64,000 nucleotides of DNA from Ryuthela nishihirai (Eukaryota > Arthropoda > Arachnida > Araneae > Heptathelidae). The translations under genes and the position numbers were made by a program. Shown piece by piece: positions 3,816 through 58,860 of this stretch (within the stretch, counting starts at the first letter, position 1; every line of letters starts with the position of its first letter). Under the pieces are notes generated by a model. It worked only from the letters and a program-made list of their open reading frames with translations. It did not search any database and was not told the origin of the DNA. The stretch is from assembly GCA_038380435.1 (NCBI GenBank), contig JAWZYU010000019.1, forward strand, positions 29,227,801 to 29,291,800, given 5' to 3'.

Positions 3816-4317
3816 GCAACAGGTTTGAAACGGTAAAGCTGGTAGTGCCTGGAACAGACTCCCTACAAACCTGATCTTTCTGTATGTGATTGCCACATTT
3901 GAGGCCTTTTGAAAAAAGTCATCGAATGAAGAAAGGTCAAGTCGAAAAAAGCTGTGCAGCGCATGGTTATAGAATTCCTCAAAAAACAGCCGAAGTCGTT
4001 CTACAAATAGTGTCTCATGCTACTAACTTCACGTTGGGTCAACGTTTCAAAGGCATAGAGAACATCAATAGATAAGTCTCTATGAATTTACCCTTATAAA
4101 TGCTTTAAAACATTCAAGGTGGAGAGTTGGAGTTTTATAATCCTTCCGATCTTAGATGGTAACTGCATCAGTCAATAAAAAAGAACGACTAAGAATTGAA
4201 AGTCGTCGAGGTATTAAATACTCTCTCCCCTACACACTAACTTGGATATGTACCTGCATCAATTCAATAAAAAAACTAACAATTAATAGTCTTCGTGCTT
4301 TTAAAATCGCCTCGAGA
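3816..4317. other. Spacer, nothing recognised
   Basis: Two short open frames (3890-4075, 4156-4353) have no recognisable features. The second runs into the AT-rich palindrome and is not protein-like. Confidence 0.5.
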
Positions 4318-4478
4318 TCGAAGATAATCGAGAATAATATAAATAATATATAATCTCGATTACATAATATATAATCTCGATTATATATTATATGATTACA
4401 TAATATATAATCTCGATTATATATTATATAATCTCGATAAATCTCTTATAATAATATAATGAGATAAATCGAGATAGA
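4318..4478. repeat. AT-rich palindromic repeat (ATAATCTCGATTAT unit)
   Basis: The motif ATAATCTCGATTAT and its inverse recur several times, alternating with TATATTATAT. Two almost identical units of about 32 bp lie side by side at about 4365-4428. The block is self-complementary and could extrude as a cruciform. Confidence 0.8.
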
Positions 4479-4479
4479 T

Positions 4480-4642
4480 AGAAGCATCCCGTCAAAACCA
4501 CCCCTATTTTTCAAAATGCACAGGGCATGGCTCTCCTGCACGCTGAACCACAGCTTTACGTTCCATCTGACGGACAACAGCCTTTCCAAACCCATCGACG
4601 TCCCCTTTCTGATGTAGGGCAACAAGAAGGTTTAACCGGAAA
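4480..4642 (-). repeat. SINE-M fragment
   Basis: An internal part of SINE-M in reverse: GCATGGCTCTCCTGCA, CCATCTGACGGAC and CCTTTCCAAACCCATCG. It abuts the SINE-T copy that follows. Confidence 0.75.
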
Positions 4643-4830
4643 CACCCCTCAAGCAGCTTCTTGCCACAGAGTTCTGACAGGAGCCTGTCAGTTTAATACG
4701 CCATAGAACAGATCTGTTAAGAAGGCTAGACCTCAGAAGAAAGATAACACAAACAGCCATGTCTTTACAGTGCTGGAACTCAAGTCTCTTGGATCAGTAG
4801 CCAAGAGCGCTAACCACTCGGTCCCTCTTT
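4643..4830 (-). repeat. SINE-T copy
   Basis: The reverse complement of the second tRNA-derived SINE: CCCTCAAGCAGCTTCTTGCC, then CTGACAGGAGCCTGTCAG, then the tRNA-like head ending GATCAGTAGCCAAGAGCGC and CTAACCACTCGG (inverted A box). Confidence 0.85.
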
Positions 4831-5339
4831 TTATTTCTTCCTTGGATAAAATTCAGTTTCTTTATAATGCTTTCACCCCCTCCCCCTTCACACACCCAAT
4901 AAAATACTTTTATATTAAACTCCACCGTAGACAGTAGCTATTATTTTCTTTCGAAATGAAAATCGCTATGTCATTGAAATTCTGCAGTCACTGAAGATGG
5001 TTATGAGTAGGGTTACCATCTCGCTGGGAATCTCCAGAAATTTAGATTTTAATCCACGCCTTGTAGAGGATAAGGACTTTCATTTTTTCCTAGAATCAAT
5101 AATATGTTATACAGAGAAAGAATATTCACTTATATTGAATTGTTCAGGAACCTGACAAATATCTTCACCAAATTTGATAAAACTTTCGAATCTGTCTACT
5201 TATTTTAGAATTTTCATGAAAATTTAGCTTAATATATGTTTCCAACTGGATATTTAATTTATTATGCAGAAGTGTAAAATGTCAAATTTGAAAACATCGT
5301 GTTGAAAACATCGTTATTGGAAAACGAAATTTAAAGCTG
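4831..5339. other. Spacer, nothing recognised
   Basis: AT-rich sequence with no repeat family or coding frame that I can support. Confidence 0.5.
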
Positions 5340-5685
5340 TTACTTTTTTGCGGCACTTTTTTTGCACACCATAGACTAAATGGCCAGGTCACAAGAACCC
5401 TGAGGGCTCAGAGAAGGTTGGGGAGGGGACCCACTGGATAGCTGTTAGGAAACAGATGGTAGCCTTCGTCAAGGCCATCCAGCTTGTCCTTTAATGCGCA
5501 TAGGGATGGCTCCCATCGGACGGACGGCGGTCTTTCCAAGCCCATTGATGTCTCCTACTGCTCGAGGGAGGGTAAGGAGTTTTGCGGATATAAATCTCAA
5601 CGCTGTTCGAGCTGGAACTCAAACCTGAGAACTACAGATTACGATCTTGGCGCACAATAAATTGAACCACCCCTGTCTCCATTTT
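5340..5685 (-). repeat. SINE-M copy
   Basis: Near full length in reverse: GCGGCACTTTTTTTGCAC, GGCCAGGTCACAAG, GACCCACTGG, and the inverted head ending at the GAACCACCCCTG side. It faces the plus-strand SINE-M just to its right, so the pair is arranged head to head. Confidence 0.9.
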
Positions 5686-5697
5686 TCCGGGAGAAAT

Positions 5698-6055
5698 TTG
5701 CCTAAGTCGGAAGCGTGCCAGGTTTCTAATCTTAAGTTCCCAGGCTCGAGTCCAAACTGCGCCTACGTTGGCATTTATCATCGATATGCCCCTTTCTTCT
5801 TTTAGCGAGAAAGATAATTGCTCAGCTTAGAAAAACTGCCTTCCGCGATTGGGACGTTAAGATGTGAGCCCGTGTGCGTGAGAGCCATACTCCGTGCACG
5901 TTAAAGAACATTGTCTTTGACAGGAGGTAAGTCAAATAAGCAATTGTCCAGCGGATTACCATCCCTTAAACCCTTTTAGCCTTTGGTGTCCTTGTGACCT
6001 GGCCATTTAGCCCATTGTGTGCATACAAAGTGCCGATCAGACGCAAAACAATCAA
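5698..6055 (+). repeat. SINE-M copy
   Basis: Head with CCTAAGTCGGAAGCGTGCCAG and B box GGCTCGAGTCC, then the normal body to GCAAAACAATC. The TCCCAACTGC part of the head is altered. Together with 5340-5685 it forms an inverted pair separated by about 12 bp. Confidence 0.9.
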
Positions 6056-6269
6056 ACATTTTTCTTTTAATATTTAAAGAGTTATCAAAGTTTAAATATT
6101 TAATAACAATATATCCGTTATAAGATTTACCTCATCTGTTAAATTTAAATATTAAGTATCCTTTCACCGTTGAATGAAATAAATATATTTTAGAAATTTA
6201 TTTAAATAATTCTTCCAATATTGAGCGATTTTGCTTTTCTTACGGCTGATATTGTTATAAAAATAAAAA

Positions 6270-6440
6270 AAATAAATACCCCCTCAAGCAGCTGCTTGCC
6301 ACAGAGGTCTGACAGGAGCCTGTCAGTTTATATGCTACAGTAGAAGGTCTGAGAGGATGGCAGGACCTCAGCAGAAAAACGTCACACACATCCATGCCTA
6401 AACTCCGGGGCTCGAACCCAGGTCCCTTAGATCAGTAGCT
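6270..6440 (-). repeat. SINE-T copy, head truncated
   Basis: A/T-rich tail (AAATAAATACC), CTCAAGCAGCTGCTTGCC, CTGACAGGAGCCTGTCAG, then the B box in reverse (GCTCGAACCCAGG). It stops after GATCAGTAGCTG, before the inverted A box. Confidence 0.9.
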
Positions 6441-7147
6441 GTTAAATAAATACTCAACCTTCCGTAACACTTTCAATATCAAACGAATAACGTGGAAAAT
6501 TGAGATTTAGATCAGTGTGATTCGGACGTTTATTTTGTGATCAGTCACATTTTTTCACAAAACTTTCTTTTTCAGATGTTTAGAGAACTTCTAAGTTAGC
6601 TTTTCATGATAGAACATGGAGTCGTACCTTAATGTTCGAGCACCAATGCAACATTTCTGGTTGTTGTCTTCTGAAATCAATCTGCCAGTTGCAGCATTCG
6701 TCCCGAGTAATTAATCCGCTAGGAGTTATTAACTCGCGTTATGAGTCTGACAAGAATATTACTAGTCTCATTTTCAACAACACGAATAACACTCACTGTG
6801 AGAAGACAAATGAAGAGTACTATTTATAATTCAGTTATTGATAGTTCCTGTTCACTTGCGAGCTTTAGGATTTGCTGACGTTTGCTCTTTCACTTGTAGC
6901 TCTAAAGCAGTCATTTTTGCTTTAGTCTGGCTTTTTATTTTTTACTTTTTTTTTAAGTCCAGTTGGAGAGAAATCGGGTTATTGCCACTATGCTTGCGTG
7001 GTCGAAAACTATTAACCTCGTTAATTTCTTGCTTAGTCAGCCAAGAATCTTACGTGGTTGATTGATTTCAATGTCTGTTTCGTTCAGTAACTTTTCATTA
7101 CGATTTTATTATCGCTTCGTGAAAACGTTCTCTTTCCTTCGGCGCTG
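6441..7147. other. Single-copy sequence, no gene supported
   Basis: Contains a pyrimidine tract ending in CAG near 6575 followed by an ATG, but the frame closes after seven codons. The frames at 6632-6829 and 6838-7065 lack recognisable features. Confidence 0.5.
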
Positions 7148-7375
7148 GGTTGTTTTACCTCTGAGTGGCACTTTTGTGCACAAAATGGACTAAACAGCCA
7201 GGTCAAAAGGACTCCAAGGACTCAGAGAAAATTGAGGGAAGACGATCCTCAGGACAGCTTAGGAGATGGATGAAAGCCTCCAAAGACCAGGTGGCTTATT
7301 CTTTAACATGCGTAGGGTATGTCGAGGCCCTCACTGAGGGCATGGTGAGGATTAGAAGAGATAAATTTCAAATTT
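7148..7375 (-). repeat. SINE-M fragment, strongly diverged
   Basis: Starts with GTTGTTTTACCTCTGAGTGGCAC, then a decayed body (AACAGCCAGGTC, GACTCAGAGAAAATTG, TTCTTTAACATGCGTAGGG). Confidence 0.7.
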
Positions 7376-7452
7376 CGCACAATTTGGATTCGAGTTTTAT
7401 AGGCCTCCTCGGTGGCGCAGTGCCACTCTAATTGTTGGGGTCCAGGTTCGTG

Positions 7453-7823
7453 GGGGCGGGGGTGGCTCAGTTGGTAGCGTGCCAGGCTCGTAATCTGTAG
7501 TTCCCAGGTTCGAGTCCCAGCTGGGTCAGCGTTGAGATTTATCTCCGCAAAATTCCCCACCTTGCCCACGGTCAGTAGGGGACACCGATGGGCGGACGTG
7601 GCCCCGTGTACGTGGCCCCGTGTACGGGAGAGACATACCCTGTGCACGTTAAAGAACACGCTGGATGGCCTTGACGGGAAGCTACCATCTGTTCCCCAAC
7701 AGCTGTTCCAGTGGGTCCCCTCCCCCAACCTTCTCTGAGCCTTCGGGGTCCATGTGACCTGGCCATTTAGCCCATGGTGTGCAAAAAAGTGCCGCTCAGA
7801 GGTAAAACAACCCAACCCAACAA
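7453..7823 (+). repeat. SINE-M copy, young, with target-site duplication
   Basis: Full length: GGGGCGGGGGTGGCTCAG, GGCTCGTAATCTG, GGTTCGAGTCCCAGCTGGG, body, and a tail of AACCCAACCCAACAA type. An 11-bp direct repeat CCAGGTTCGTG lies at 7442-7452 and 7824-7834. It carries one small internal duplication (GTGTACGTGGCCCC region, about 7603-7625). Confidence 0.95.
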
Positions 7824-7871
7824 CCAGGTTCGTGTCCCGAGATGGCATGACCACTAAGACAGTATACGTTA

Positions 7872-7920
7872 CAACATCTCCCACTAAGACCAGTGACTTC
7901 GGTCTTAGTGGGAGATGTTG
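7872..7920. repeat. Perfect 20-bp hairpin
   Basis: The arm at 7872-7891 (CAACATCTCCCACTAAGACC) is exactly complementary to 7901-7920, with the 9-base loop AGTGACTTC. It lies at the 3' side of the third tRNA-like repeat. Confidence 0.9.
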
Positions 7921-8394
7921 CTTTATGAGAAGAACTGCTCAAACTAGCAACAGTTTCTAGTATCCTTCAAGCGTCCTATTGTTTAAAAAAACAGCAACTG
8001 AGATCTGCATATTACGAGCCTGACGTGTTACTAATGAAACACCCCCTGCCCCCTTTTCATAAGGGATGGCATCATATAATTCATATTTATAAACACTCTC
8101 CACTTTTTTTTTATCATGGGTAGATTAATGTCAGGAAATTTTGTTTATTAAAAATTTCAAACTGTGTCTGCAGATTTGCAGCTTTCATTTCCAAACCTGT
8201 CTCGTACCCAAGTCATGTCTCGAGGAAGAAGATGCGAGATCGGGAAACATTTCATTAATCACCCCCTTCTTTCTCCTCCCCCCCTAGGCTACATGATAAT
8301 ATCTTTTAATTAGGTTTACTCTAAGACCAGCAATAGTGACAGATAGAAAACTATTACACAAATACTGTAAGTTGGATTTGTTGATTTACTTCTG
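7921..8394. other. Spacer, nothing recognised
   Basis: No repeat family member or credible coding frame seen. Confidence 0.5.
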
Positions 8395-8748
8395 AACGTC
8401 ACTTTTTTTCCCACAATGGTCTCAATGGCTAGATCATAAGGACCCCGAAAGCTCAAAGAAGGTTTGGGGGAGGGGACCCACTGGACAGTTGTTGGGAGAC
8501 ATGTGGTAGCCTCCCATCAAGGCCATCCAGTGTGTTCTTTAATGTGCACAGAGTTATGGCTCTCCCGGGCCAAGTCTTAACGTCTCATCCGACAGACGAT
8601 GGCCTTTCCAAGCCCATTAGTGTCCCTTACTGACCGTGGGTAGGGTGGGAAGTTTAGCTGAGAAAATCACTACACCTGCCCAGCTGAGACCCGAAACTGA
8701 GAATTGCAGATTACGAGCCTGGCGCGCTACCGACTGAGTCTTCCCGGG
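8395..8748 (-). repeat. SINE-M copy
   Basis: Nearly full length in reverse, from CGTCACTTTTTTTCCCAC through GGGGACCCACTGGACAG to the inverted head CTGGCGCGCTACCGACTGAG. Confidence 0.9.
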
Positions 8749-14385: not shown

Positions 14386-15219
14386 AACATTTTTAACTTT
14401 TGGACTGAACATTTGCGTAAAGGGTGCAACGTACTCGGACGAAAACGTATCTTCGTTTTGGTTAAGTAGGCGCAAGCAGCAGTGAAGCGATGCAGATGGC
14501 ATTCACTTTCTCCTCACGGTACGGTGAGTCTGACACACAGATCAACGGAATGCCCTTCAAACCTCAATGAATTATTCTCACAGGAATGGGGATTTCTTAT
14601 GTAGCATTCTCTACAGCTATGCTGAAAAGTCTTTTTATGCAAACGGGTAATTACAATGAAAAGAAAAATAAGCATTTGTTTTGAATCATGCGTATTATAT
14701 ACGTACTCTTTTCTTATGGTGCTTCATCTTAGAATTCACTTTATCGTTAGAAAGGAATGTATTTAATATCAATGAGAATTAGAACAATTCTAGCAAATTA
14801 ATTATCCCCGTTGAAATGGAATATGGTTCTTTTTACAATCTAATTGCTCGTTTTAATAATGATTGCATAAATTATATATTGTATATCCCATTTACAAAAC
14901 GGTTAGCCCATTTGTTAGCCCAAAGTTAGCCCATTTACAAAACGGTTAGGCACTCCAGGAAGTGAGGTACCCAGGGAGGAGAGGGGAACAGGAGGTCTAC
15001 CCCTCCAAAAATTCGGTCGTCTTATACGAAATCTCAAACTTGTATACCTGTTTTGAAATGCAAAACTGGTGTCTTCGTATAATTTTGTTTTAACCCTATG
15101 GTATGTGTAACACTAAAAATAGATTTAAAAAATAACTAAAACTTTATTCCATATATGTATGTAGAATATCATTTAACCTTTCCTGTCCGGTGGAATATTT
15201 TAGTAATGGGGAAACAGTA
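14386..15219. other. Spacer with a small direct repeat
   Basis: No gene supported. CCCATTTACAAAACGGTTAG occurs twice, about 43 bp apart, at 14888 and 14931, with GTTAGCCCA repeated between them. Confidence 0.5.
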
Positions 15220-15330
15220 CAGTCGCTCAAAGAAGTATCCAAACACTATGGTTGATTACAGAATTCAGAAAAAATATCTGCCAACGATTTTTTTTAGAAA
15301 TCAGTGATCTGGCAACCTTCGTGTTACGTA
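15220..15330 (+). mobile_element. MITE-P half element
   Basis: CAGTCGCTCAAAG to the GTGTTACGTACACG centre, preceded by TA at 15218-15219. The right arm is missing, replaced by AT-rich sequence. Confidence 0.85.
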
Positions 15331-16240
15331 CACGTATTTATTAAATACGTGAACAATGGACGAAATTTAATTATTAAAAAATAATTATTTATTATTAAAA
15401 TTAAAAATTAAATAAATATTCATTATTATAAATAATAATTAATATTATTTTTAGCTAATTACGTCTTATTCTCAGCCCCCCTCCCCGAAGTTAAATTCTC
15501 GAATCCTTCCCTAAACTAAATTATCGCCCCCCCTTCCCCCTCTTCCAAAACTAAATAACTAAATCATGGTTACCTGCCGGATTCCAAGAGCTTACACAGA
15601 CATTTCATTTGTGGAAGGGTTGATGATTTTCTAATTTTAGGTGACTAGCTTAGAAAAATACATGATATTTAAATCCTCAAGTAGTTAGACCCCTCCCACT
15701 TAGTTGAGTTTAATTACCATTTAAGCACTCTTGCCTTAGACGATTAGAACTTCAAGCTGTGGTACTTGCTAACTGTCAATTCGGACTACAGAGTCGCAGG
15801 AATGGGCGCTCAATGATAAAACGAACGAAACCTAAAACATACCCTTTGTAACATCACGAACAAATCGTTTCAACGTAATTACCGAGACACGGAAATTGTG
15901 GTTTCCGGGGAAACGAGAAGCAGTATATTCCTTCTTTTGTTTCTGCTCAAGTTTTGTTACTTTTTCTGGAAATCAGTATTTTGGGACACAGGTAAAATTT
16001 CTAAAATATTCTCTCGTTTCACAATTTCTAGGAACAGATTACAACGGGGGAAATTCTTTAGTGTGCTAAACCGGTCTACGAGAGTCGTGAGTAAGGATAT
16101 GTAATTTCCGACTTAGAGAGTTCTAACATGTGATCTCACTTGTGAAATGTGGAGCTCTTAGAGAAAGGATGTTTCCACTCAGGTCTCAGTCACGTGGAGA
16201 TGCAATACTAGGCCTTCAAAACTAGTATTCTCTCATTATT
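15331..16240. other. AT-rich spacer
   Basis: 15350-15450 is nearly pure A/T. A frame at 15898-16104 has a hydrophobic stretch followed by a possible donor (ACAG|GTAAAA at about 15990) but starts with GTG and has no acceptor, so I do not call it a gene. Confidence 0.4.
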
Positions 16241-33598: not shown

Positions 33599-33989
33599 TC
33601 CCAAGCAAAAAAATTAAATTGAAACTAGACGTGATTTTATCTTTATCGCGCTGAATTTTTTCAAATAATATATATGAATATGTGATTAAAGAAAAATATG
33701 TACACCAAAACTCTTGTAATTTTTTGTATGAAAATTCTAGAAAGTTCTCCATGTCAAATGAAACTCTTTCGTAAAGGAACTGTATAATCCGCTTTCACGA
33801 AAAGGGAAAACGAACAAGCAAGCATCTAGTATCCCTGTGAGAGACCCGACAACTATTTAAACTCGGTGACTATTTGAAACATGGCTACCATTTACAAATT
33901 CTGCACTCTTATCCGCCTACAACTCAAGCACAGGCCCCGAGATATTTATGCCATATACCGTATACATTAAGTGGACACTATATAGGGCA
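33599..33989. other. Spacer, nothing recognised
   Basis: AT-rich; no gene or repeat member supported. Confidence 0.45.
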
Positions 33990-34085
33990 CAGTCGCTCAA
34001 AAAAGTTTCCGAACGCTATGGTTGATTACAGAATTCAGAAAAAAATATCTGGTAACGATTTTTCGGATACTTTTCTGAGCGACTG
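33990..34085. mobile_element. MITE-P, internally deleted
   Basis: CAGTCGCTCAAAA to CTGGTAACGATTTTT, then directly CGGATACTTTTCTGAGCGACTG. Both outer ends are kept, but most of the palindrome is lost. TA follows at 34086-34087. Confidence 0.85.
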
Positions 34086-34840
34086 TACAATACCATGCTC
34101 TATCAATACGAACTCAATAACTTTTTAAATAATCTCTTTTCGAAAAACTGTAACGGAAAATAATATAAAAATCTCAATGTCATCTATTTCAATCTAGATT
34201 TTCAACAATATGAATCTTTAGATAAGTATTTTTTTAGATAATTACGTTAATTGGAATATTCAAGAGCAACAATGTCGGTTTAAAAATTGCTTTGGAAAGT
34301 TAATTTAATAAAGCGAGATTCTCATATCGCCTCTGGCACATATGAAAATCTCGTTTTCAAAGATAAAGAAGTTTTTCCTTTACCTACTGTTTCATTCCTT
34401 AAAAGCTTTAATTTGAGATAGCGGATGATGGGAAAAATGCAAATAGTAATTATACATTAGTAATTATACAACATAAAAGTATTCGCCTTTTAATTCTACT
34501 ACTGAAGGAAATGCAACTATTTAGTTGCATTCCCCACAACTCTCAAAAAAATGAGTAAATTATCACTGTCAGTGGAATATCTTTTAAAAACTACTACTAT
34601 TTTTGAAATTTCTATCTATATATATTATTTGTAAAAGTTATTAATATTTTTGCTGTTTCATCATTTCAGTGATCTGTAAAGATATATATATTAAATATGC
34701 TAAGTATTTGAAAAATGCGAATTATATTTCATTAGTACCAATCATACTAAAAAAAGCCTCTAAAATAAAAATGATAACTTAATTATTATAAATGAACAAT
34801 TAATAATCTAAAATGAATATGATAACTTAATTATCATTTT
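34086..34840. other. Very AT-rich spacer
   Basis: No gene supported. Confidence 0.5.
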
Positions 34841-40296: not shown

Positions 40297-40650
40297 GGGT
40301 TGGATTTCTTTACCTCTGAGAGGCACCTTTTTTACACATAATATGTTTACACACAATAGTCTATATGACCAGGTTACAAGGACTTCAAAGGTTCAGAGAA
40401 AGCTGGAGGGAGGAGACTAACTGAACAGCTGTTAGGAGATAGATGGAAGCCTCCCGTTAAGGCTATCTTCATGGGTGGCTTCCATCTATCTCCTAACAGC
40501 TCCATCTATCTCCTCAGCATGTTCTTTAATATGTTCAGGGTTTTTTCTTGCACTCAAAGCCACGGCTTAATGTCCCATCCGATGGACGGCGACCGCAGAA
40601 CGGGGTTAGTAGAGATAATTTTCAAAGCAAGCACAGTTGGGACTAGAAAC
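40297..40650 (-). repeat. SINE-M, right half of a fold-back pair, rearranged
   Basis: GGGGTTGGATTTCTTTACCTCTGAG at the 3' end. A short forward piece (GGCTTCCATCTATCTCCTAAC) sits near 40476-40515 before the reverse body resumes to GGGACTAGAAACG. Confidence 0.75.
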
Positions 40651-40764
40651 GTCTTACGTGAAAGAGTCAAGTTGCATGTCGTAAGGCACTCTATGTCTGT
40701 TAGAAGGTCTGAGCCATCATACAAGTGAGACGTGTCCTGTAAACGTCAGTCAGGATGTATTCAG

Positions 40765-41272
40765 TGAGACTTACTGCCTGGCCAAATTGTTATGAACGCT
40801 GCATCGTGCGCGAAGTACCACGAAATATTCAATTGTATGCAAAATGTTTAACTGAAGTGAGCATTCTACGTCACTACGAAGTGCTACAAAAGCCGTAAAA
40901 GGCATGGCGGAAAGCAAAGTCAAGTTCGACATGGGTTAGAAGGTTGATCTGACTGACTTCGAAAGGGGAGTCGTTGTCGGAGCTCGATGGGCAGGAGCAT
41001 TCCTAACAGAGGTGATAGAAATCAGCAGAAAATCACCGGTCAGAACATCCCAAGTGTATGAAGAAGAGCAACGGTATGGAAAAACGTCAGACAATCGGGG
41101 AAAATGCAGGAGAAAAAACGTTGTGATCGATACCGATAGGCGTTTGTTGGCACGAACTGTATTGCCAAAGAAAGCTGTTGCAGCTCATCAGCTGAGAGAG
41201 ATGATCCATTTCAAAGAGAATTGTCTGCACAGAACTGAAAACTTTAAAATTTGTGAACTTATCACGATATAC
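40765..41272 (+). pseudogene. Tc1-like transposase, N-terminal part
   Basis: The DNA-binding half of a Tc1/mariner transposase. From the ATG at 40904 the frame reads MAESKVKFDMG, one stop, then DLTDFERGVVVGARWAGAFL, the first helix-turn-helix motif of Tc1 transposases. SRKSPVRTSQVYEE (recognition helix), then GRKRxxx-like CRRKNVVIDTDRRLLARTVL and the second HTH (AVAAHQLREM) follow. The DDE catalytic part is absent: the element is cut at about 41272 where a SINE-M begins. A CCTGGCCAAATTGTTATG motif near 40778 looks like part of the left terminal repeat. Confidence 0.8.
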
Positions 41273-41276
41273 GAGT

Positions 41277-41478
41277 TGGGTTGGGTTGTTTTACCTCTGA
41301 GCTGCACTTTTTTGCACTAATTAATGAACTAAATGGTCAGGTTGCAAAGACCCCGAGGGCTCAGAGAAGGTGTAGGGGATGGACTGGACAGCTGTTGGGA
41401 GACACAGAGTAGCCTTCCGTCAAGATCATCTCGGGTGTTCTTTAACGTGTACAGAGTACAGCTCTCCTGCACACGGGG
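41277..41478 (-). repeat. SINE-M, 3' part, split by a LINE
   Basis: GGGTTGGGTTGTTTTACCTC to CTCTCCTGCACACGGGG. It continues at 42983 after the LINE. Confidence 0.9.
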
Positions 41479-42982
41479 GGCCCCTCCATGTTTGCACGGG
41501 TGTTCCGCACTTCGCCTGTTCAGAGTCTTTACGTTGAGACCATCGAATCATCTTTATTCGCCGTCAGCAGTTGTACCTGCAGTACGCCGCAAAATTGCGA
41601 TCCCTGTCAGGCCATTCCACCTAAAAAAAAACAACTGAAAACTGTTTTCAGTCCTCATTGGGAAATGTTATACCAGAATCGGCCGACTGCCTTTTGGTTT
41701 GCGTGTCCAAGCTACCTCAGAGATATCAACATCAGCCTCGATAGCTTTGCCCAATCGACAGCTGAGCCACTTCCACTATGGCTCGCTGTTTCTACTTCCG
41801 GTGACTTTCCTTTGCAGGAAAGGGAAAACCTTTACACCCGACAGCATGTACCAGTAACTCTTTGCCAGACATCGTGCTGATCACCCGGGCTTCTTGCCTG
41901 TCTTCACAGATGGCTCGAAGTCAGGCACATCAGTGGGATCAGCCAGGTCTGCTGTGATGTAATCATTGCAGACAGATCCCACAGCAGTGCTCCATCTTCA
42001 CTGCAAAGTTGCATGCTATCAACCTTGCCTTGGATTACGTGGCGGCTAAGCATCATCGTCGGTGTGTGTTTTATAACGACTCGTTTGGCTCTCTACAAGC
42101 CTTGATCTCGATGAGGCATCGACCTCACCCTCTTATGTCCAAGATCCGCTGGCAGCTCCATCGTGTGGTAGTCATTACCCCTGATCCCGACGTGACCGGC
42201 ACATAACAGAAGAGGATGGTAGTTATGACTTGATAGATGCTGCTGCCAAGTCAGTCACCCCCCTGTCCAACTCTCCACTGCCTGTTCCATACCTGTGTTT
42301 TACCATCGAGCTCTGGGCACAGTGGCAGAGATCTTGGTCTGAACAGGTCGGCACCAAACTTTTCGAGATCAAGCCCATTGCCAAACCGTGGCAATTAATG
42401 TTTCCGCAGGAATCGCAAGAAGGAAGTTGTACTTGCTGGGCTTCGCTTAGGTCATTCGTTTATCACTCATTCATTTCTTCTTCGGATGGACGACGAACCT
42501 AAATGCAAGTTCTCAGACATCATTTTAATTATTAAGCACATTTTAATCCATTGTCCCGCTTTTGACAGACGTTTTTTTTTTTATCTTTTAATTATTTACA
42601 TCTTTTATCAGATGAATCGCTTTTAATTTCTGTCTTTGATATTTTACGTTTTTCAGATAATTTTACACATATTTAGTATTTTAGTTCATTTTTACCTTTT
42701 GACATGCTTTTATACTAGAGTCCTATACACCCATTCGTTGTTTTTCTATTTTACAATTGCGAACTCTTTTTATCCTTGTTCTTATACACGTTGTTTGTTT
42801 TACATTTTGGTTTCTTGTTTTGTCCTTTACATTATTGTTGCTTTCATCCTCTTTGTGTGTTGCTTTTAACTTTTGGTTGAGGGTTCAATGACTTTTATCT
42901 GTTTATTTTTTGCTATATCTACCATGCATTTGGCGCAATATGGCCTTAGTTGCGCCATTAAATCTCAAGCAACCACACCAAA
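41479..42982 (+). pseudogene. I-type LINE, 3' part (end of reverse transcriptase to 3' UTR), 5'-truncated
   Basis: The same family as the minus-strand LINE at 50.8-54.4 kb. The frame starts in the thumb region (VFRTSPVQSLYVETIE, PHWEMLYQNRPTAFWFACPSYLRDINISLDSFAQ). An RNase H domain follows: FTDGSKSGTSVG near 41908 and a broken LHCKVACYQPCLG region. LIDAAAKSVTPLSNSPLP and LWAQWQRSWSEQVGTKL come next. Several frameshifts are present. After the stop at 42500 there is a T-rich 3' UTR of about 400 bp ending GGCGCAATATGG, CGCCATTAAATCTCAAGC and AACCACACCAAA. The insertion lies inside a SINE-M and is flanked by a 13-bp duplication. Confidence 0.88.
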
Positions 42983-43185
42983 CCCGCACATGGGGTAGGG
43001 TTTAACATCCCATCTGACGGACGGGGCCTTTCTAAGCTCATCGGTGTCCGCAACTGACCGGAGGGCAGAGTGAGGAGTTTTGCGGAGATAAATCTCAACG
43101 CTGATCCAGTGTGTGACTGGAACCTGGAAACTGAAATTACTAGCCTGACTTGCTACCGACTAAGTCATCCTGGCCCCAAATACCA
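42983..43185 (-). repeat. SINE-M, 5' part, split by a LINE
   Basis: Resumes at CCCGCACATGGGG (second copy of the target duplication) and runs through CCCATCTGACGGACGGG to the inverted head TGCTACCGACTAAGTC. Confidence 0.9.
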
Positions 43186-43312
43186 GAAGGTACACCCCTA
43201 CAAAAGGGACTGAGATTCGATATACACGTATACGACGAAGTATAAAGAAGGTGTTTAATAATTTGGCCATGCAATGTACGCTGTGGGTGTTAAAAGGTTA
43301 AATTTGTCGAAC

Positions 43313-43697
43313 AGTTGGGTTGTTTTACCTCTGAGCGGCACTTTTTTGCCACCATGGGCTAAATGGCCAGGTCACGTGGACCCCGAAGGCTCAGAGAAGG
43401 TTGGGGGAGGGGACCCACTGGAACAGCTGTTGGGAGACAGATGGTAGCCTCCCGTCAAGGCCATCCAGCGTGTTCTTTAACGTGCACAGGGTATGGCTCT
43501 CCCGCACACGGGGCCACGGCTTAACGTCCCATCCGACGGACGGCGGCCTTTCCAAGCCCATCGGTGTTCCCTACTGACCGTGGGCAGGGCGGGGAATTTT
43601 GCGGAGATAAATCTCAACGCTGACCCAGCTGGGACTCGAACCTGGAAACTACAGATTACGATCCTGGCGCGCTACCGACTGAGCCACCCCCGCCCCT
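43313..43697 (-). repeat. SINE-M, full length and close to family consensus
   Basis: From CAGTTGGGTTGTTTTACC to GAGCCACCCCCGCCCC. The head in reverse gives GGCTCAGTCGGTAGCGCGCCAGG and GGTTCGAGTCCCAGCTGGG. Confidence 0.97.
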
Positions 43698-44444
43698 TTG
43701 TCGAACAGTGAAACATATTCTACTTACAGTAAATAGCGCACCAAGCGTTTCGAGTATGATTCTCATCTGATAATAAATGCTGTAAAGGGTCCCTTTTGCC
43801 GACCTTGTGATCGAAGAACATCATTAAGTAGACTACCATAATAAAGTGCCGATCGGGGTTAAAAACCACTCAACGAATTATTTTTCATGAGTTCGGCTTC
43901 GTTCAGAACAGCAAAACTTAGCAAGAAAAAAGGTAAGAAGGAAATAATAGAAGAAATTATGAAGATGCACGACGGAAATGTTTTCTTCTGATGTCTAAAA
44001 CCTTTTAGCTCACAATTAACATAACTAAGCGTGTGCGTCATCGTTCTTATTGTCAGTCCGCCCTTGTGAGGCGGCATCCTTTTCCATCGACTAATTAGGG
44101 ACACAATGGACGTGTCGAGAGAAATCCGCATTGTTTGACAATAATTGGTATTCGCTAAGAAGTTGACTACAGTCACGCGAAGTGACGTCTTTTTTTCGGA
44201 CTACATTTTCTTGTGAGCAGTTTAACTCTCTCTGTCTGTAATGAGGAGCACAAAGAGAAATCTTCGGAATGTGGGTTAAGGAAAGAAATGGCAATACGTG
44301 GAAGAGAAAAAAACATTAGAGGTAACGTCACAGGTCGAAGGATGATGTAGTGATTGGTTAGTCTATTCTTAGAAAAGCAGATAACAGAATACCTAAGCTT
44401 TGCTCAAAGTTATCGAACGCTCTTGGAGCTAAAAAAATCACAAA
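43698..44444. other. Spacer, nothing recognised
   Basis: The minus-strand frame 43859-44176 has no domain and no splice context. Confidence 0.45.
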
Positions 44445-44635
44445 TAAAATAAATTTCCCTTCAAAAGCTGCTTGCCACAGAGGTTTGATATGAGCCTGTC
44501 AGTTTATACGCCATAGCAGGTCTGTGACGATGGCAGGACCTCATCAGAAAAACAACACAGGCATCCATGCCTTAGCCGGAGCACGAACAAAGGTCCCTTG
44601 GATCAGTAGCCAAGCGCGCTAACCACTCAGCTAAG
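44445..44635 (-). repeat. SINE-T copy
   Basis: AATAAAATAAATTTCC, AAAAGCTGCTTGCC, GATATGAGCCTGTCAG, inverted A box CTAACCACTCAGC. Confidence 0.9.
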
Positions 44636-45006
44636 GGTTGGGTTGTTTTATCTCTGAGCTGCATTTTTTGCACAGAATGGATTAAATGGCCAGTTCACAA
44701 GGAGCCGAACGCTCAGAGAAGGTTGGGGGGAGGGGACAAACTGGACAGCAATTGGGAGAAGGATGGTAGTCTCCATGAAGGTCATACAACATGTTTCTTA
44801 ATGTGCACAGGGTGTGGCTCTCCGGCGGCACAAGAGGCCACGGCTTAATGTCCTATCCGACAGACTGTAGGTGTCCTTTACTGAGAGAGGGCAGGACGGG
44901 GAGTTTTGTGGAAATAAATCCCAATTCTGGCCCAGTACAGGACTCGAACCTGTCAACTGCAGATTATAAGCCTGGTACGCTACTGACTAATCTGCCTCAG
45001 CCCCCC
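44636..45006 (-). repeat. SINE-M copy
   Basis: Starts directly after the SINE-T head: GGTTGGGTTGTTTTATCTC to the inverted head GGTACGCTACTGACTAATC. Confidence 0.9.
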
Positions 45007-46962: not shown

Positions 46963-47280
46963 GTACTTAGAACTACTCAATCATCCGTTAATTCGATTCG
47001 CTGTTACAGCATGTTAAAAGCGGAAAATAAAAATATCCATTCTCATAAAATACAAATATATCTCAGTGAAAAATTGATCAAATAGGTAAGATAATTCTTT
47101 TGTTTGTTTCACTATAGTTGAATGATTTGTTGATATTGCATAGTCTCTTGTTGAATAGTATAGTAGATTGAATAATAGGAAAAGTAAACAACTTTTTAGA
47201 AGTATATACTTACCTAATTTTGTACACTAATCTTGAAGATGCCTAAAATTAAAAGACGAATTGATTGTCAAATGGTGCAA

Positions 47281-47357
47281 CGTGATATATAAAAGATGTG
47301 ATCGATTTCGTCCTAACTATTAGGACTTCGTTAGACATACAATGACTAGAAATCACA
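47281..47357 (-). ncRNA. Hammerhead ribozyme motif, core mutated
   Basis: Minus strand, 77 nt, the counterpart of 48851-48927. Stem II is complete (GTCCTAA-TAG-TTAGGAC) and followed by GAAA (plus-strand 47306-47309) and UCGAUC. The first core strand reads CTAACGA (plus-strand 47328-47334) instead of CTGATGA: G5 has become A (position 7 is free to vary). G5 is needed for catalysis in all hammerheads, so this copy is predicted inactive. The outer part of stem I is TGTGAT/ATCACG, fully paired. Confidence 0.75.
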
Positions 47358-47461
47358 TTATAAAACATACGTAAATTTCAAAGTTCTAACTTCTGCTTCA
47401 AATTATAGTTGTACATAGATGAGAGGCACGAGTCATGCAGAATAATATGCACGGTCAGCTG

Positions 47462-47944
47462 TCACAAGAGGTGCTGGTGATTGTTAGAGTTGTGGTTGGT
47501 TGATGAATTTTTGTTTAATAACTGTCGCAAAGAGATATTATTTTGTGGAAAATTTTGTAATAGAATTTTCCAAGCGGGATTAAGGTGGGCTTGGTCGGTA
47601 TTACAACAACAGTTTTTATTGACAAAAATTAGGAGATTTTCAGTAAACAATAATTCGAAGATGGATGAAGGACTGCTGATAATGAAAGCTTGGTTGAATA
47701 GAGGTTTAGTAGTTTGCATTAATATGCTAGTTCTTTGATGTTCCTTTATTCTTTCTTGGAGAGTTCTTTTCGTTTGTCCTATGTAGCCGAGAGATTTGGA
47801 GGAATTGCAGGAGTCTGATTTAGAGTAAGTAATGGGTACAAGATATACACCACCTGTCAGAGAAGATGTATCTCTGTCTTGTTTTATAAGAGATAAAACA
47901 GTGGTATGAGATTTGGTAGGCACTTTAAAATTATAACTTTTCAT
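47462..47944 (-). pseudogene. PLE GIY-YIG endonuclease region, left copy
   Basis: C-terminal region of a Penelope-like polyprotein, open for 160 codons. It has the GIY-type strand GVYLVPITYSK, then SLGYIGQTKRTLQERIKEHQ (the YIG strand with the conserved Arg and His), and downstream LLFTENLLIFVNKN with the Glu expected for the metal site. In active PLEs this domain nicks the target for reverse transcription. The upstream reverse transcriptase is missing. Compared with the right copy it lacks about 36 bases after ILMQTT. Confidence 0.8.
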
Positions 47945-48007
47945 AATATTATTGATGGCATTGTTGATGGCTGGAAAATGTAAAATGGATGAGGTATATT
48001 TTACATA

Positions 48008-48637
48008 TTGAGAAGAGTTGTCTTGAAGATGGAAGTTGTTAAATTTATTTCTGGTGGAGACAACTCTTCTAAATATGTAAAATATACCTCATCCATTTTA
48101 CATGTTCCAGCCATCAGCAATATTATCAACAATATTATGAAAAGTTATAATTATAAAGTGCCTACCAAATTTCTTAGCACTGTTTTATGTCTTGTAAAAC
48201 AAGACAGAGATACATGTTCACTGACAGTTGGTGTATATCTTGTACCCATTACTTACTCTAAGTCAAACTCTTGCAATTCTACCAAACCTCTCGGCTACAT
48301 AAGACAAACTAAAAGAACTCTCCAAGAAAGAATATAGGAAAATCAAAGAAATATCAAATTAATGCAAATTACTACAGCCTTTTCATCTACTGTTATTCTT
48401 GAAGGACCTAAACCTTTATTCAACCAAGCTTTCATTATCAATAGTCCTTCATTCATCTTCAACTTATCGCTTACTGAAAATCTACAAATTTTTGTCAATA
48501 AAAACTATTGTTGTAATACCGACCAAGCCCAACTAGATCCCACTTGGAAAATTCTATTACAAAACTTTCCACAAAATAATATCTCTTTGCCAGTTATTAA
48601 ACAAAAATTCATTAACCAACCACAATTCTAACAATAA
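48008..48637 (+). pseudogene. PLE GIY-YIG endonuclease region, right copy
   Basis: The same domain as the left copy: SYNYKVPTKFLSTVLCLVKQ, GVYLVPITYSKSNSC, then LGYIRQTKRTLQERI (YIR in place of YIG), a stop at about 48337, and after it KPLFNQAFIINSPS and LTENLQIFVNKN. The stop and the lost Gly make it non-functional. Confidence 0.8.
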
Positions 48638-49112
48638 CCAGCACCTCTCGTGTCATCTGACCATGCATGTCGTTCTGCATGTCTCGTGTCTCTCATCTGT
48701 GTACATAGATATACAGAGATGAGAGTCACGAGTCATGCAGAATCATGAGAGACACGAGTCATACAATTTATAGTTGTACATAGATGTACAAATATAATTT
48801 GAAGTTTACCTATGTTTTACCTAACTTTGAAATTTACCTATGTTTTATAATGTAATTTCTAGTCATTGTATGTCTGATGAAGTCCTAATAGTTAGGACGA
48901 AATCGATCACATCTTATATATATTACGTTGCACTATTTGACAATCAACTCGTCTTTTAATTTTATGCATCTTCAAGATTAGTGTACAGAAATAGGTAAGT
49001 ATAAACTTCTAAAAAAAAGTTGTTTAGTCTTCCTATTATTCAATCTACTAAATTCAACAACAGACTGTGCAATATTGACAAATCAACAACTATAGTGAAC
49101 CAAACAAAGAGA
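48058..49112 (+). mobile_element. Penelope-like retroelement 3' end, right arm of inverted pair
   Basis: The plus-strand half: GIY-YIG coding remnant, 3' UTR with a local duplication (GAGAGTCACGAGTCATGCAGAAT repeated near 48720-48760), the hammerhead motif at 48851-48927, and an end near 49112 matching the left arm's start. AGGTAAGTATA, a splice-donor consensus, lies at 48993 and is also kept in the left arm. Confidence 0.85.
48851..48927 (+). ncRNA. Hammerhead ribozyme, type I, complete core
   Basis: A self-cleaving RNA. Stem I is built from TGTAAT (48851-48856) with ATTACG (48922-48927) and ATGT (48870-48873) with ACAT (48909-48912), around a large internal loop. Core strand CTGATGA lies at 48874-48880, stem II GTCCTAA/TTAGGAC with loop TAG at 48882-48898, core GAAA at 48899-48902, and a minimal stem III (AT/AT around CG) at 48902-48907. 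The cleavage nucleotide is C48908, with the cut before A48909. One extra A (48881) lies between the core and stem II. Very short stem III and location in the terminal repeat are known traits of PLE hammerheads, which may act best as dimers. Confidence 0.88.
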
Positions 49113-49556
49113 CTATCATACCTACTACGTGTCCATTCTCGTTTAAACGAGTATCTCAATACCGCCAAAAGTTTATATGTCGTTTTTCTAGTTTTATTAC
49201 AAAAGATTAAAGTGATTAAAGCATTAGAAATATTTTTTATGCTTCAGAGAACTCAGTTTTTCTAACTGCATTTTCATCCGTGACTTAATCATTTGTGGTT
49301 ATGACAATGACATCTCACGTTACAGAGCATGTTCTGAGTCAATGCCTGCCGGTGTCCGATCTTTTCAAGGAATAATCACGTGGAACCAATAGCACAGGAC
49401 ACAGATAACTTAACCCAAGGTCGTGACAAACGAATATATTTATGTCACTAAATATAATTTATTTGGTTCATGCATGATATAAATTCAATTTAATTGTTCT
49501 AATTTATCATGTCATTCACGTTTTGTGCGTGAATCTGAATTTCGAGCATCATTGTA
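49113..49556. other. Spacer, nothing recognised
   Basis: No gene supported between the PLE pair and MITE-P. Confidence 0.45.
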
Positions 49557-49770
49557 CTGTCGCTCAAAAAAGTATCCGAACACTACGGTTGATTACAAAA
49601 TTCAGAAAAAATATCTGGCAACGATTTTTTTAGAAATTAGTGATCTAGCAACCTTCGTGACACGTGACACGAAGGTTGCCAGATCACTGATTTCTAAAAA
49701 AATCGTTGCCAGATATTTTTTCTGAATTTTTTAATCAACCGTAGTGTTCGGATACTTTTTTGAGCGACAG
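49557..49770. mobile_element. MITE-P, intact palindrome
   Basis: 214 bp. CTGTCGCTCAAAAAAG at the left is mirrored by CTTTTTTGAGCGACAG at the right, and pairing is almost unbroken to the centre GTGACACGTGACAC. TA duplications lie at 49555-49556 and 49771-49772. It is the best copy in the window and likely the youngest. Confidence 0.95.
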
Positions 49771-49772
49771 TA

Positions 49773-50785
49773 CATTGTTGTCTGCGGCTTTGTCATTTTA
49801 ATTGTAGCAAATGGTATGTTTGTCACGAAATACCTGATGTAACATGAGGATTTCAAAAATTTTCGAATCGAAATGATTATACGTTACCTAGATTTCTATG
49901 AGTACAAACTATTTAGAAATGTTTCAGTTCCACAACCGCGGAAACTGCACTAGAACAACCTCCTCTTGTAATGATTAAATATGAAACGGATAAATATTAT
50001 ACATAATATTTAAGAAAAAATTAGTACTGGTAAGTTTATGTTGATAAGATATATTTAAAATATTAAAAATTTAAATGTAATTTTGTTACTAGTTATTGTA
50101 ATTAAAGAATTATAACTTTAATATAAGAAACCCTATATTTTACAATGCTGTTTAAAATCAGTGAACGGGAGAGTAAGTGGATAGAGATGATAATAATGAA
50201 TGATTCAATTAGATCAGTGGTGAATAACCTTTGCCTGTGAAAAGGTATTTACAACAGATATTTTCTGAGCCTGAGAGGCCGCAATGGGAAATATTGTAGT
50301 AAACAAAAAATTACATTGTAATGCTTTTGATTTGATGTAGCAAAATAGTAAGTAACCAATTTTTAATAGTGTAATATTGTCAAGCTTAATGATATTGCAG
50401 CAATCATATAAGATGCTGGTGATAATTTTGTGCGAATTCTAGAGAAAGAAATCTGTTTTACCTATTCTTAACATACAGAACACATTTAAGTCATAGCTTT
50501 ACACGTAAACAGAATACTTCACTGATAAATATAAGAACACTAATTGTATCATTCATCAATTGTAAGAATAATAATAACAAATAATGCATAATATCATTTA
50601 AATTTTTAACATCATCGTAAACGAGCGGGGACTGCGTAAAAAGAAATGGCGGGTCTCGTGTTGTGCACTACTGGATTACATGCATTAATATGAAAATGAG
50701 TGGACGAATACTTATTCTACAGAACGAGAGAAATAATGAGCTAATTAAAAAACTAACCATTGGGCAGAAGCTAGGGTTATATTGC
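49773..50785. other. AT-rich spacer
   Basis: No gene or recognised repeat. It ends at the 3' flank of the LINE on the minus strand. Confidence 0.45.
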
Positions 50786-50797: not shown

Positions 50798-53700
50798 CGT
50801 TGGTTGCTTGGAGTTTAATAGCGCAAGAGCAGCTAGGGCTATATTGCGCCAGACAAAAGTATATAAACAGATAACAGACCTTCAACCCACAACCAAAGTT
50901 AAAAGAAACACAAAAACGGGAAAGAACAGCACAAAAACAAAACAGTATTACCAACAAGTGTATAAATCAAGGACCCATTTAAAATCAGAAACAAGAATAA
51001 AATCTAGAATACAATGTAAAAATGTCATACACGAGTAAAATAACCATAAAAACGTAAAAATGCAAAGATAGGAGTTAAAAGAGGCATCAGAAAACAGGTG
51101 TCCGAGTGTAAGGGACTCGGACGCAAAATCATGAAAGTTAAAATAAAAGCGCCATTCAAGGTTAAAACTGGACAAGAGATTAAAATATGCTTAATGGTTA
51201 AAATGGTGTCACAAAACTCGCACTTAGGTTCGTCGTCCGCCTGAAGGAGAAAGGAATGTGTAATATACGAATCACCTAAGCAGAGTCGAGCAAGTACAAC
51301 TTCCTCATTGCGATTCCTGCGAAAAGAAGACTGCCATTGTTTGACAATGGGTTTGATCTCGAACTATCAGAATCAATGGGCTTGAGCTCTGAACCAACCT
51401 GTTCAGACCAAGATCTCTGTCACTGTGCCCAGAGCTCGATAGAAAAACGCTGCTGGAAGTCCAAGTAAGGAATCAGCAACGGAAAGTCGGATAGGGGCGT
51501 GGCTGACCTAGCAGAAGCATCTGCCAAGTCATTGCCTCTAATTCCGATGTGACCGGGCACCCAACAGAAGAGAATGGTGGTGGTGGCTGCCAGACGATGG
51601 AGCTGTTGGCGTATCTTGGAGAGAGAACGGGGTGACGCCGATGCCTCACTGAGATCAATGCCTATAGCGAGCTAAGCGAATCGGTGTAGAGGACACACTG
51701 ACTTTAACTCTTAGCTGCTATGTAGTCCAAGGCAAGACTGATAGAATGCAGCTCAGCAGTGAAGATGGAACACTGCTGTGGGATCTGATCTGCAATGATT
51801 ACATCACAGCAGACCATGGCTGATCACACTGATGTGTCGAACTTCGAGCCATCTGTGAAGAAAGGCAAGAAGTCTGGGTGTGCAGCACGATGGCTGGCAA
51901 AGAGTTGCTGATACATACAGTCGGGTGTAAAGGCACCTGCACAGGGAAAAATCGCAGGAAAGGGTAACAGCGAGCCATGGTGGAAGTGGTTCGGCTGTCG
52001 ACTGTGCGATGCTATCGAGACTGGTATTAATGTCTCGCAGGTAACCTCGGACATGCAAACCTAAAGGACAAATGGCAGTCGGTCGTTTCTGGCATAACAT
52101 TTCCCACTGGGGATGAGCATGAAATCCCAAGTAGGATGGCCTGACAGGGATCGCAATTTTGCAGCATACTGCAGAGACAACTGCTGATGGCAAATAGATA
52201 AGGAAGGTTGGTCAGTCTCAATGTAAAGACTCTGGACCGGTGAAGTCGGAAGGCCACCATGCAAACACGGAGTGCCTGATGATGGAAGGGGTCCAGTACC
52301 TTCATCACCAAATTCTGGGCAGAGTCATACAGCAGGGATCCATATTCAAGTTTCGACCAGACAAGTGCATGGTAGAGGTGGAGCAAGGAACATTGGCCAC
52401 ACCCCAAGTAAGGGAGTAGACGACCTTCCTAATGTTCAATTCCTGCGTGCACGTGGATCTGAGATGTCGAACATGAGGTAAGAACGTCAATTTCTGGTCG
52501 AAGATGAGACCGAGAAACTCGGTCTCTTCCACAACTAGAATGATGTTACCCCCAAGATGCAGCTCAGAGTCCAGATGAAGATTACGCTAGCAGCAAAAGT
52601 GCACACAAGCAGTCTTCTGTCGGAAAACTGAAACCTATTGGCAGTCGCCCAAACCGAGAAATTGTTCAGGGCAGTTTGCAGGTGTCATTCAGTGACCCTC
52701 AGCTGGACGACGAGCAAAAGATGCTAAAGTCGTCAACATAGAGGGCATTGCATACCGTCGGAGGAAGTTGCCGTGTAATACAATTTATCTTGACAGTGAA
52801 AAGCGTAACACTCAGGACGCATCCTTGTGGCACCCACTGTTCTTGGGGGAAAGGCTGCGACAGAGTGTTGCCGATACGAACTCGAAAATTACGAGGTGAT
52901 AAAAAATTGGCGATGAAGATCGGCATGTGACCTTGCAAGCTGAAGCTATAGAGGTCACAAATAATGTCGAATCTCCATGCCGGTCGTACTCTTTTTCGAT
53001 TCGATGTCGAAGAAAATGGACACCAGGTGCTCTCGACGCAAAAATGAATTCCTGATGCCGATTCGAGGCGGATCAGGTGGTCTAAAGTAGACTTGTGTTT
53101 TCGAAAGCCACTCTGGGTATTGGAAAGAATGCCATGATGTTCCAAATACCAGGCGAGCCTGGTATTTACCATTCTTTCCAACCTTGCAGACGCAACTCGT
53201 CAACACAATTGGACGATAATTCGAAGAAAAATATTGAAATCTTTGCTTGGCTTGGGGAAGGCCAAGACAATGGCCTCCCGCTAAGAGTCGGAAACTGCTC
53301 TTCGATAAAAATACGGTTGAAGAGTCGGAGCAGCCGATCCTTACTCGATGGTGAGAGATGTTGGAGCATAGCATAATGGACATTATCTGGTCCGACAGCG
53401 AAATGCACGAGAAACGTGCAGAGCAAACCGAAGTTCCTCTGCGGTGAATGGCCTGTTGTAAGTCTCCAGGACATTCGAATGGAAGAACTGTGAAGAGCGT
53501 TCGGCCTTGCTCTTCTGGGCCAGAAACTCGGGGGAGTAGGAGGATAAAGAAGAGATGGAGGAGAATGACTCCCCCAGAATGTCGGCATTGCTCGAGGTTC
53601 AGAAATTGCTTGTCCATTGTACTCCAGGACGAATATTAAGTGGGACGTGTATTTCCCACCTATCTTCTGGATCTTATCCCACACGACCTTAAGAACCTTA

Positions 53701-58324: not shown

Positions 58325-58860
58325 GGGCGGATTTAATTGATAAAATGGCCGGATATAACTGTGAAAATTTTAGGCTATAATTGTTAAAATGACCGGATAT
58401 AATTATGAAAAAGCGCAAGATATAATTGTTGAAAGGGCCGGATATAATTGATAAATGGGCTGGATATAATTGATAAATTATAGGCTATAATTGTTAAAAT
58501 GGCCGGATATAATTATTAAAAAAAGCTGGATATAATTGTTAAAATTATAGGCTATAATTGTTAAAATGGCAGGAGATAATTATAAAAAAAGGGCCGGATA
58601 TAATTGTTAAAAGAGTCGGCTACAATTGTTAAAATGGCAGGATATATGTGTTAAAAGGCCGAATATAATTGCTAAAAAATGCCGGATGTAATTTTTAAAG
58701 GGGCAGGTTATAATTATTAAATGAGCTGTATTTGTGTACAATTGTTAAAAGAGTCTGCTATAACTGTTAAAAAAAACCGGATGTAATTTTTAAAAGGGCA
58801 GGATATAATTATTAAAAAGACTGTATATAATTGTTAAATGGGCCGGATATAATTGTTAAT
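58325..58860. repeat. Tandem repeat, about 22-27-bp unit (GCCGGATATAATTGTTAAAA)
   Basis: Roughly twenty imperfect units with variable A runs between them, so the period drifts. Confidence 0.9.

Follow-up and report, generated by a model that had tools for sequence, protein, structure and literature searches.

A minimal type I hammerhead motif in a head-to-head pair of Penelope-like element copies of the spider Ryuthela nishihirai

Minimal hammerhead ribozymes (HHRs) of type I in Penelope-like elements (PLEs) were described by Cervera and de la Pena (2014) and by Lunse, Weinberg and Breaker (2017), as related in the available parts of PMC7761336, PMC6155905 and PMC6466107. Cleavage as a dimer through a self-complementary loop is credited to Lunse et al. 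(2017) in the accessible passages of PMC6466107 and PMC7761336. According to such partial sources, tandem HHRs are described for many PLEs and are not needed in every copy, and the role of the minimal PLE hammerheads is called unknown in the sections at hand of PMC7761336. In PAc (Poseidon of Anolis carolinensis), the available text of PMC11167929 reports no cleavage without protein and an insertion of RNA that is independent of cleavage; the RT starts 111–118 bp into the ORF, whose start codon is located 26 bp before the cut. The newt and axolotl ribozyme HHR_Amex1 is poor as a monomer and better as a dimer in the extracts of PMC7229834.

The DNA analysed here (hereafter, the window) is a stretch of 64,000 nt from the genome of R. 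nishihirai. It contains what is very probably a minimal type I hammerhead of a PLE family, placed in the pLTR-like 3′ segment of the element, at a locus that most probably represents a decaying relic. With its outer stem I helix, the hammerhead covers 48849–48929 of the plus strand, as seen from the sequence, a motif descriptor and the covariance model R1 (see below). In detail, the core bases C3–A9 (CTGATGA) are found at 48874–48880 (+) and G12–A15.1 (GAAA) at 48899–48902 (+), both in the sequence and in the family copies, and 12 of 12 core bases are intact by sequence and copy alignment. Stem II (48882–48898, +) has 7 bp, GTCCTAA at 48882–48888 with TTAGGAC at 48892–48898, and a TAG loop. 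TCGAT at 48903–48907 (+) is followed by C17 at 48908, and the register of the core predicts cleavage between 48908 and 48909 (+). Stem I is composed of an inner helix of four pairs (48870–48873/48909–48912, +) and an outer one of eight pairs, one of them T-G (48849–48856/48922–48929, +). The order CTGANGA, GAAA, UH of the type I hammerhead is present, stems I and II flank the core, and stem III is a single pair over a palindromic loop.

The sequence-only reading had already placed the core, the 7-bp stem II, GAAA and C17 in the right order with stem I on both sides, and the sequence confirms it. The same reading proposed a two-pair stem III. Since two pairs would close a loop of 2 nt, a stem III hairpin can be formed by A48902–T48907 alone, over TCGA. 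The segment ATCGAT (48902–48907, +) is self-complementary and may serve either as a one-pair stem III with a palindromic tetraloop or as a 6-bp helix joining two RNAs. An extra A is located between A9 and stem II (48881, +; copy alignment). Directly 3′ of the ribozyme, at 48915–48924, the sequence TATATATA resembles the pLTR TATA box of an Adineta vaga Penelope, as given in the available part of PMC3846280.

A descriptor that asks for the core, a stem II of 4 or more and a stem I of 3 or more has a single site in the window, the hammerhead itself, against one site per 300 simulated windows (first-order, 64-kb, both strands). The covariance model R1 was built on 38 of 47 non-redundant viral-contig hammerheads of type I order (nine were excluded by hand at alignment), which are unrelated to the window motif. 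On the 64-kb window it gives two rows in total; the hammerhead motif ranks first (20.2 bits, E=0.0018), and the second row is found at 32526 (13.8 bits, E=0.16). The motif is therefore matched by an independent covariance model.

Rfam showed a different picture. The whole window gives 0 rows at the gathering score, RF00163 included; 48500–49300 gives 23 rows at E<=10 with a hammerhead in none of them, and 48845–48940 gives 0 rows at E<=10. As a control, three viral loci whose hammerheads are textbook cases with the type I order were run, and these also gave 0 rows at gathering. Under a looser setting the textbook hammerhead of one of them (L017) scores 30 bits with RF00163 against a cut-off of 34, and that setting, too, yields no hammerhead row for the window motif. 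Because L017 fails as well, the gathering score of Rfam does not discriminate. A covariance-model search had been put forward as a check of the earlier reading; R1 matches the motif, and Rfam lists no hammerhead for it, even at E<=10.

The generic core pattern in the whole genome gave 18690 forward and 24082 reverse matches against 6471 and 4888 in the reversed control, and was rejected as too loose. The pattern with the extra A had 0 matches in viral contigs and 18 stretches in bacterial and archaeal genomes, two of which were kept by the architecture scan (L122 and L136), both weak. Nine stretches of viral contigs fit the ATCGAT pattern and the architecture scan kept none. In the search of viral contigs for relatives of the locus, 10 stretches fit a pattern and none is a relative. 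On the letters of the DNA, the hammerhead motif is confirmed as real, minimal and of the self-cleaving type.

The motif belongs to the plus copy of a 5′-truncated PLE (48058–49127, +; inverted-repeat arm and genome search), which comprises the end of the ORF with GIY-YIG, the 3′ UTR, the ribozyme and the common 3′ end of the family. An inverted, 5′-truncated sister, the minus copy, stands head-to-head with it (47083–48057, −; arm alignment). It was found as an inverted-repeat arm and is absent from the earlier reading. The two copies differ in 60 of 725 ungapped columns of the arm alignment, plus several indels. The C-terminal ORF remnant of the plus copy (48059–48631, +) shows GVY...YIR and an in-frame TAG at 48335–48337 (+). 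The respective remnant of the minus copy (47462–48056, −; Pfam and alignment to the PLE frame) is open, with GVY...YIG. The protein frame beside the ribozyme had been called dead, and the TAG, the change of YIG to YIR and the 5′ truncation bear this out.

Hammerhead G5 is essential. The mirror hammerhead of the minus copy (47279–47359, −) has the core CTAACGA, in which G5 is changed to A, and is predicted to be inactive; with filters off, R1 gives it 10.3 bits (E=0.069) on the 2.3 kb of 47000–49300. Thus, the plus copy has an intact ribozyme and a broken protein frame; the minus copy has an open frame and a broken core. In outer stem I, the pair 48854/48924 shows a double change from A-T to G-C between the two window copies and no stem pair is broken. 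When five changes were placed at random, such a double change with all stems kept occurred in 0.8% of the trials.

The ribozymes of the two copies are on opposite strands, and therefore no single-strand transcript of the locus has two sense copies. No tandem array bearing the hammerhead motif is found in the window. In the search for a target-site duplication, the best word common to the neighborhood of the ends has 7 nt and is adjacent to neither, and a duplication is not claimed.

Other features were observed at the same locus. The sequence TAGGTAAG is located at 48992–48999, shortly 3′ of the plus-copy ribozyme, and on the same strand at 47083–47090, where the minus copy has its outer end; the complement of TAGGTAAG is also found at 47209. 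Inside a single copy these two might pair, by which the 3′ end would be closed; alternatively, the first site could be splice-donor-like. The plus copy has a long hairpin in its 3′ UTR (48666–48750), of which only part is left in the minus copy. The miRNA-family rows of Rfam at these positions are below the gathering scores, reflect the hairpin and were rejected.

The identity of the element as a PLE derives from several comparisons. The minus-copy frame matches Pfam GIY-YIG with 18.1 bits, under the cut-off of 22.6. The genome from which the window derives (G000, 3.11 Gb) was sampled as 20 stretches of 10 kb plus 10 other loci, and one relative was found among these 30 loci (L161/L178), with an open frame of 797 codons. 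The minus-copy frame is 23% identical to the C-terminus of this frame (E=3e-11). The 797-codon frame contains the RT domain RVT_1 (E=9.5e-9) and has 116 protein relatives, 107 with an RT domain and 5 with GIY-YIG listed, by a hand count; the best named relatives are scorpion proteins (~29% identity). Similarity to its RT part (31%, E=1e-9) is also seen in L217, a locus at which the window's family is more complete. For the 208-aa remnant of the window, 35 candidate relatives gave none at E<=0.001, in a search that finds proteins of similar length only. An AlphaFold prediction of the remnant without alignment had a pLDDT of 31.9 and was rejected as evidence.

The C-terminal GIY-YIG endonuclease of PLEs is present (GVY...YIG of the minus copy), the upstream reverse transcriptase is present in L217 and absent from the truncated window copies, and pLTR-like ends that share one fixed 3′ end are found. 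In both window copies and in L217, L219 and L221, a single element carries the ribozyme segment as well as the end of the ORF, in the same order. The placement of a hammerhead within a PLE, 3′ of GIY-YIG, was also part of the sequence-only reading; R1, the frame alignment and the family copies uphold it, with the hammerhead a minimal one of type I order.

A DNA search of the genome with 48823–49130 as query returned 41 rows, with 40 of 714 candidates scored. Forty of the rows are full-length matches of the window's PLE family, the window's own row included; the identities are 88–91% apart from that row (100%). All 39 other full-length rows end at query 295–305, one further row being partial, and therefore the 3′ end of the family is at 49117–49127 (+). 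This common end is ~209–219 nt 3′ of the predicted cleavage site and closes an AC-rich tract, with AC of 73% in 49078–49126 and 55% in the following 49 nt.

An alignment of 40 copies (38 from outside the window and the two window copies) showed C3, U4, A13 and A14 invariant. N7, a position at which the hammerhead tolerates change, is T in 29, C in 10 and A in one copy. The exact hexamer ATCGAT is found in 26 of 40 copies; when G-U pairs are allowed, self-complementarity is seen in 32 of 40. After A9, 38 copies have an extra A, one has a T and in one the base is missing. The extra A therefore exists as had been noted, and is not peculiar to this copy: it is shared by the family, the second PLE family described below also has one extra base there, and CChMVd(+) has an extra A at this position.

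The stems are largely paired across the 40 copies, with 94% of the cells in outer stem I, 96% in inner stem I and 93% in stem II, against 2–74% when the stem columns were slid by 1–2 as a control. Changed stem cells that still pair are 24 of 43 in outer stem I, 2 of 8 in inner stem I and 18 of 36 in stem II; since only part of them still pair, individual copies decay. For instance, the outer pair 48852/48926 is G-T in 27, G-C in 9, A-T in 2 and unpaired in 2 copies, and 48853/48925 is T-C in 11 of 40. Only one copy of the 40, the window's minus copy, has the double change from A-T to G-C at 48854/48924.

The contiguous core is kept in 25 of the 40 copies and lost in 15, against 18.5 kept as expected from the divergence of the flanks (binomial P=0.03); the 40 are the best matches, out of 714 candidates, to a query with an intact core, which biases the core counts upward. 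Core columns diverge by 3.5% and flanks by 6.2%, a difference that is not significant (permutation P=0.12, sets of 12 flank columns). The intact core of a dead copy had been presented as special. Since 25 of 40 aligned copies keep the contiguous core, it is unremarkable, and the conservation of the core among genomic copies, which the earlier reading took as a check, holds for 25 and fails for 15. We read this pattern as a ribozyme probably inherited from working parents and then decaying, rather than as one that dead copies retain.

For the arrangement of the family, six further copies were viewed with ~4 kb of their 5′ side; L217 was picked since its pair had already been seen. Together with the window, an inverted partner is found at four of seven loci (the window, L217, L219 and L222), and at two (L219 and L222) of the five loci chosen blind. 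The partner in L219 is without the 5′ half of the ribozyme. A direct tandem partner, as a cis-dimer would need, was found at 0 of 7 loci in the stretch examined, which is the 5′ side for six of them.

A second PLE family shows a similar organization. In L178 (3829–8610), which holds the 797-codon open frame of RT/GIY-YIG type, a head-to-head palindrome is formed in three blocks (3829–6108 vs 6381–8610, 99%), and the descriptor finds a hammerhead-like motif at both outer ends, 10 nt after the stop codon. It has the core, one extra base after A9 and the self-complementary AAGCTT at the same place. R1 did not find the second-family motif, which for this reason rests on descriptor and position. 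Pairs with ribozymes at their outer ends are therefore seen in two families, that is, in the window, L217, L222 and, partly lost, L219 for the one, and in L178 for the other.

Predicted folds were compared by nearest-neighbour energies only, in which tertiary contacts are ignored. In isolation, the region is predicted to prefer a fold other than the hammerhead (native −7.7 vs −13.7 kcal/mol for the minimum-energy fold), and the same is true with outer stem I included (−10.6 vs −18.9 kcal/mol). Of 200 shuffled sequences, 13 reach a fold as good as or better than that of the 77-nt stretch (z −1.45). Without constraint, the dimer has −36.0 kcal/mol and two monomers have −27.4 in sum, against −18.9 for the double hammerhead. 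As the native monomer and the double hammerhead are both disfavoured, the energies alone support neither cleavage as a dimer nor cleavage with the help of the protein. In the predicted fold of 47080–49130 the ribozyme is paired, nearly base by base, with the mirror copy's antisense.

As a mechanism, the ribozyme would act from the repeated pLTR-like 3′ segment, between the end of the GIY-YIG frame and the 3′ end of the element. A sense RNA of the family would be cut after C17 (48908), ~209–219 nt before the element's 3′ end. With only one pair in stem III, closed by a UCGA loop that is self-complementary, the isolated monomer should cut poorly; cutting would need two RNAs joined by their AUCGAU segments, or assistance by the PLE protein of the kind reported for the anole element. 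A transcript across both window copies would, by the modelled fold, fold back and pair the ribozyme with the antisense copy. Cleavage, the part of a dimer or a protein in it, and the inactivity of the window locus are what we infer, and function at this locus is not expected.

The first of the other explanations is that the window locus is an active ribozyme which cuts as a tandem dimer, as the sequence-only reading had suggested. The self-complementary ATCGAT at stem III is suited to it, and at the level of the family this fit stands. At the window locus a cis-dimer cannot form because the copies are head-to-head. The window has no second sense copy, the sole partner is inverted and has lost G5, no direct partner was found at the seven family loci in the stretch examined, and the modelled read-through RNA would pair the ribozyme with antisense, so that an active tandem dimer here is unlikely. 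If the head-to-head arrangement is maintained, the ribozyme might instead be a sensor of read-through, which we regard as quite unlikely. Under this idea, RNA started inside the element could cut itself, and read-through RNA would fold back, bury the ribozymes in antisense and feed dsRNA or small-RNA silencing; the self-complementary stem III would then serve the pairing of separate RNAs and not a cis-dimer.

A domesticated ribozyme, with its core kept by selection after the death of the element, would agree with the 12 intact core bases of the plus copy and with the excess of kept cores over expectation (25 vs 18.5 of 40, P=0.03). However, that sample is biased to a core-intact query, core and flanks do not differ significantly (P=0.12) and the sister copy at the very same locus has no intact core, which makes domestication very unlikely. 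The type I order and the weak palindromic stem III are also shared with the amphibian retrozymes of PMC7229834, as far as its available text goes, and a non-autonomous retrozyme, that is, a small tandem repeat with a hammerhead, could by chance lie beside a PLE. Against this, the ribozyme and the ORF end are joined in the same order in the window copies, L217, L219 and L221, and the window has no tandem array with the motif. Metazoan retrozymes are defined by short non-coding units in tandem, all of which have an HHR; such units are not found, and this origin, already contradicted, is extremely unlikely. A chance match to the hammerhead pattern has a probability close to nil. Although the descriptor is reached by one site in 300 simulated windows and Rfam is silent, the R1 match, the pattern of variation across the family and a PLE context where such motifs are expected argue against chance. 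The motif is best taken as a PLE hammerhead and, because it lies in a head-to-head pair of dead copies, as most likely an ordinary relic.

Further repeats are found elsewhere in the window. A foldback (MITE-like) element at 49547–49780 has arms of 117 nt without a spacer, which are 95% complementary, and further copies or pieces of it are located at 1611–1826, 15217–15334 and 33989–34091. Several inverted-repeat arms at 41538–42562 and 51164–52213, ~9–10 kb apart, are 78–93% identical over up to 167 nt, with one 27-nt arm of the same set at 100%. Frames within this inverted-repeat region (51420–52211, −) are presumably of reverse transcriptase/RNase H type, judging from their appearance. Dispersed related copies of a short repeat (D2, D3, D5–D7 and D9), SINE-like by their spacing, occupy 40356–44935. 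A degenerate 22-bp tandem array of ~24 copies is found at 58328–58859.

Earlier publications already cover the minimal hammerheads of PLEs, their cleavage as dimers, an additional A at this position and PLE repeats in inverted orientation. In detail, the additional A that stands unpaired after A9, before stem II, has a counterpart in the CChMVd(+) hammerhead in the accessible part of PMC3705267, which belongs to a viroid otherwise unrelated to the window motif. The one-pair stem III capped by a palindromic tetraloop is shared with HHR_Amex1 in the available text of PMC7229834; that ribozyme is part of a tandem-repeat retrozyme, whereas the window motif is part of a PLE. Head-to-head copies with a palindrome at the junction, and 5′-truncated members sometimes without a target-site duplication, resemble the Adineta vaga Penelope with inverted pLTRs, following the available sections of PMC3846280; the word hammerhead is absent from the main text of that paper. 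No paper on hammerheads in head-to-head PLE pairs was found in a literature search which had most subscription papers outside its scope.

Similarly to PAc, the window family belongs to GIY-YIG PLEs with an HHR near the junction of pLTR and ORF, and its copies have their 3′ end past the HHR, within or close to an AC-rich stretch. Judging from the available text of PMC11167929, PAc copies end nearer to the HHR than the ~209–219 nt past the cut seen here, and PAc loci are tandem, unlike the window pair. With the minimal PLE hammerheads, as far as the accessible sources describe them, the window family shares the core, the type I order, the near-absent and self-complementary stem III and the location in a repeated end, and it is an addition to them. 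The published PLE hammerheads of these sources are tandem, whereas the pairs found here are inverted and head-to-head. Two families in one genome, with a self-complementary stem III and yet with paired copies head-to-head and not in tandem, are a test case, and their arrangement raises the question whether the dimer cleavage of PLEs takes place in cis, joins two RNAs, or is assisted by the protein of the element.
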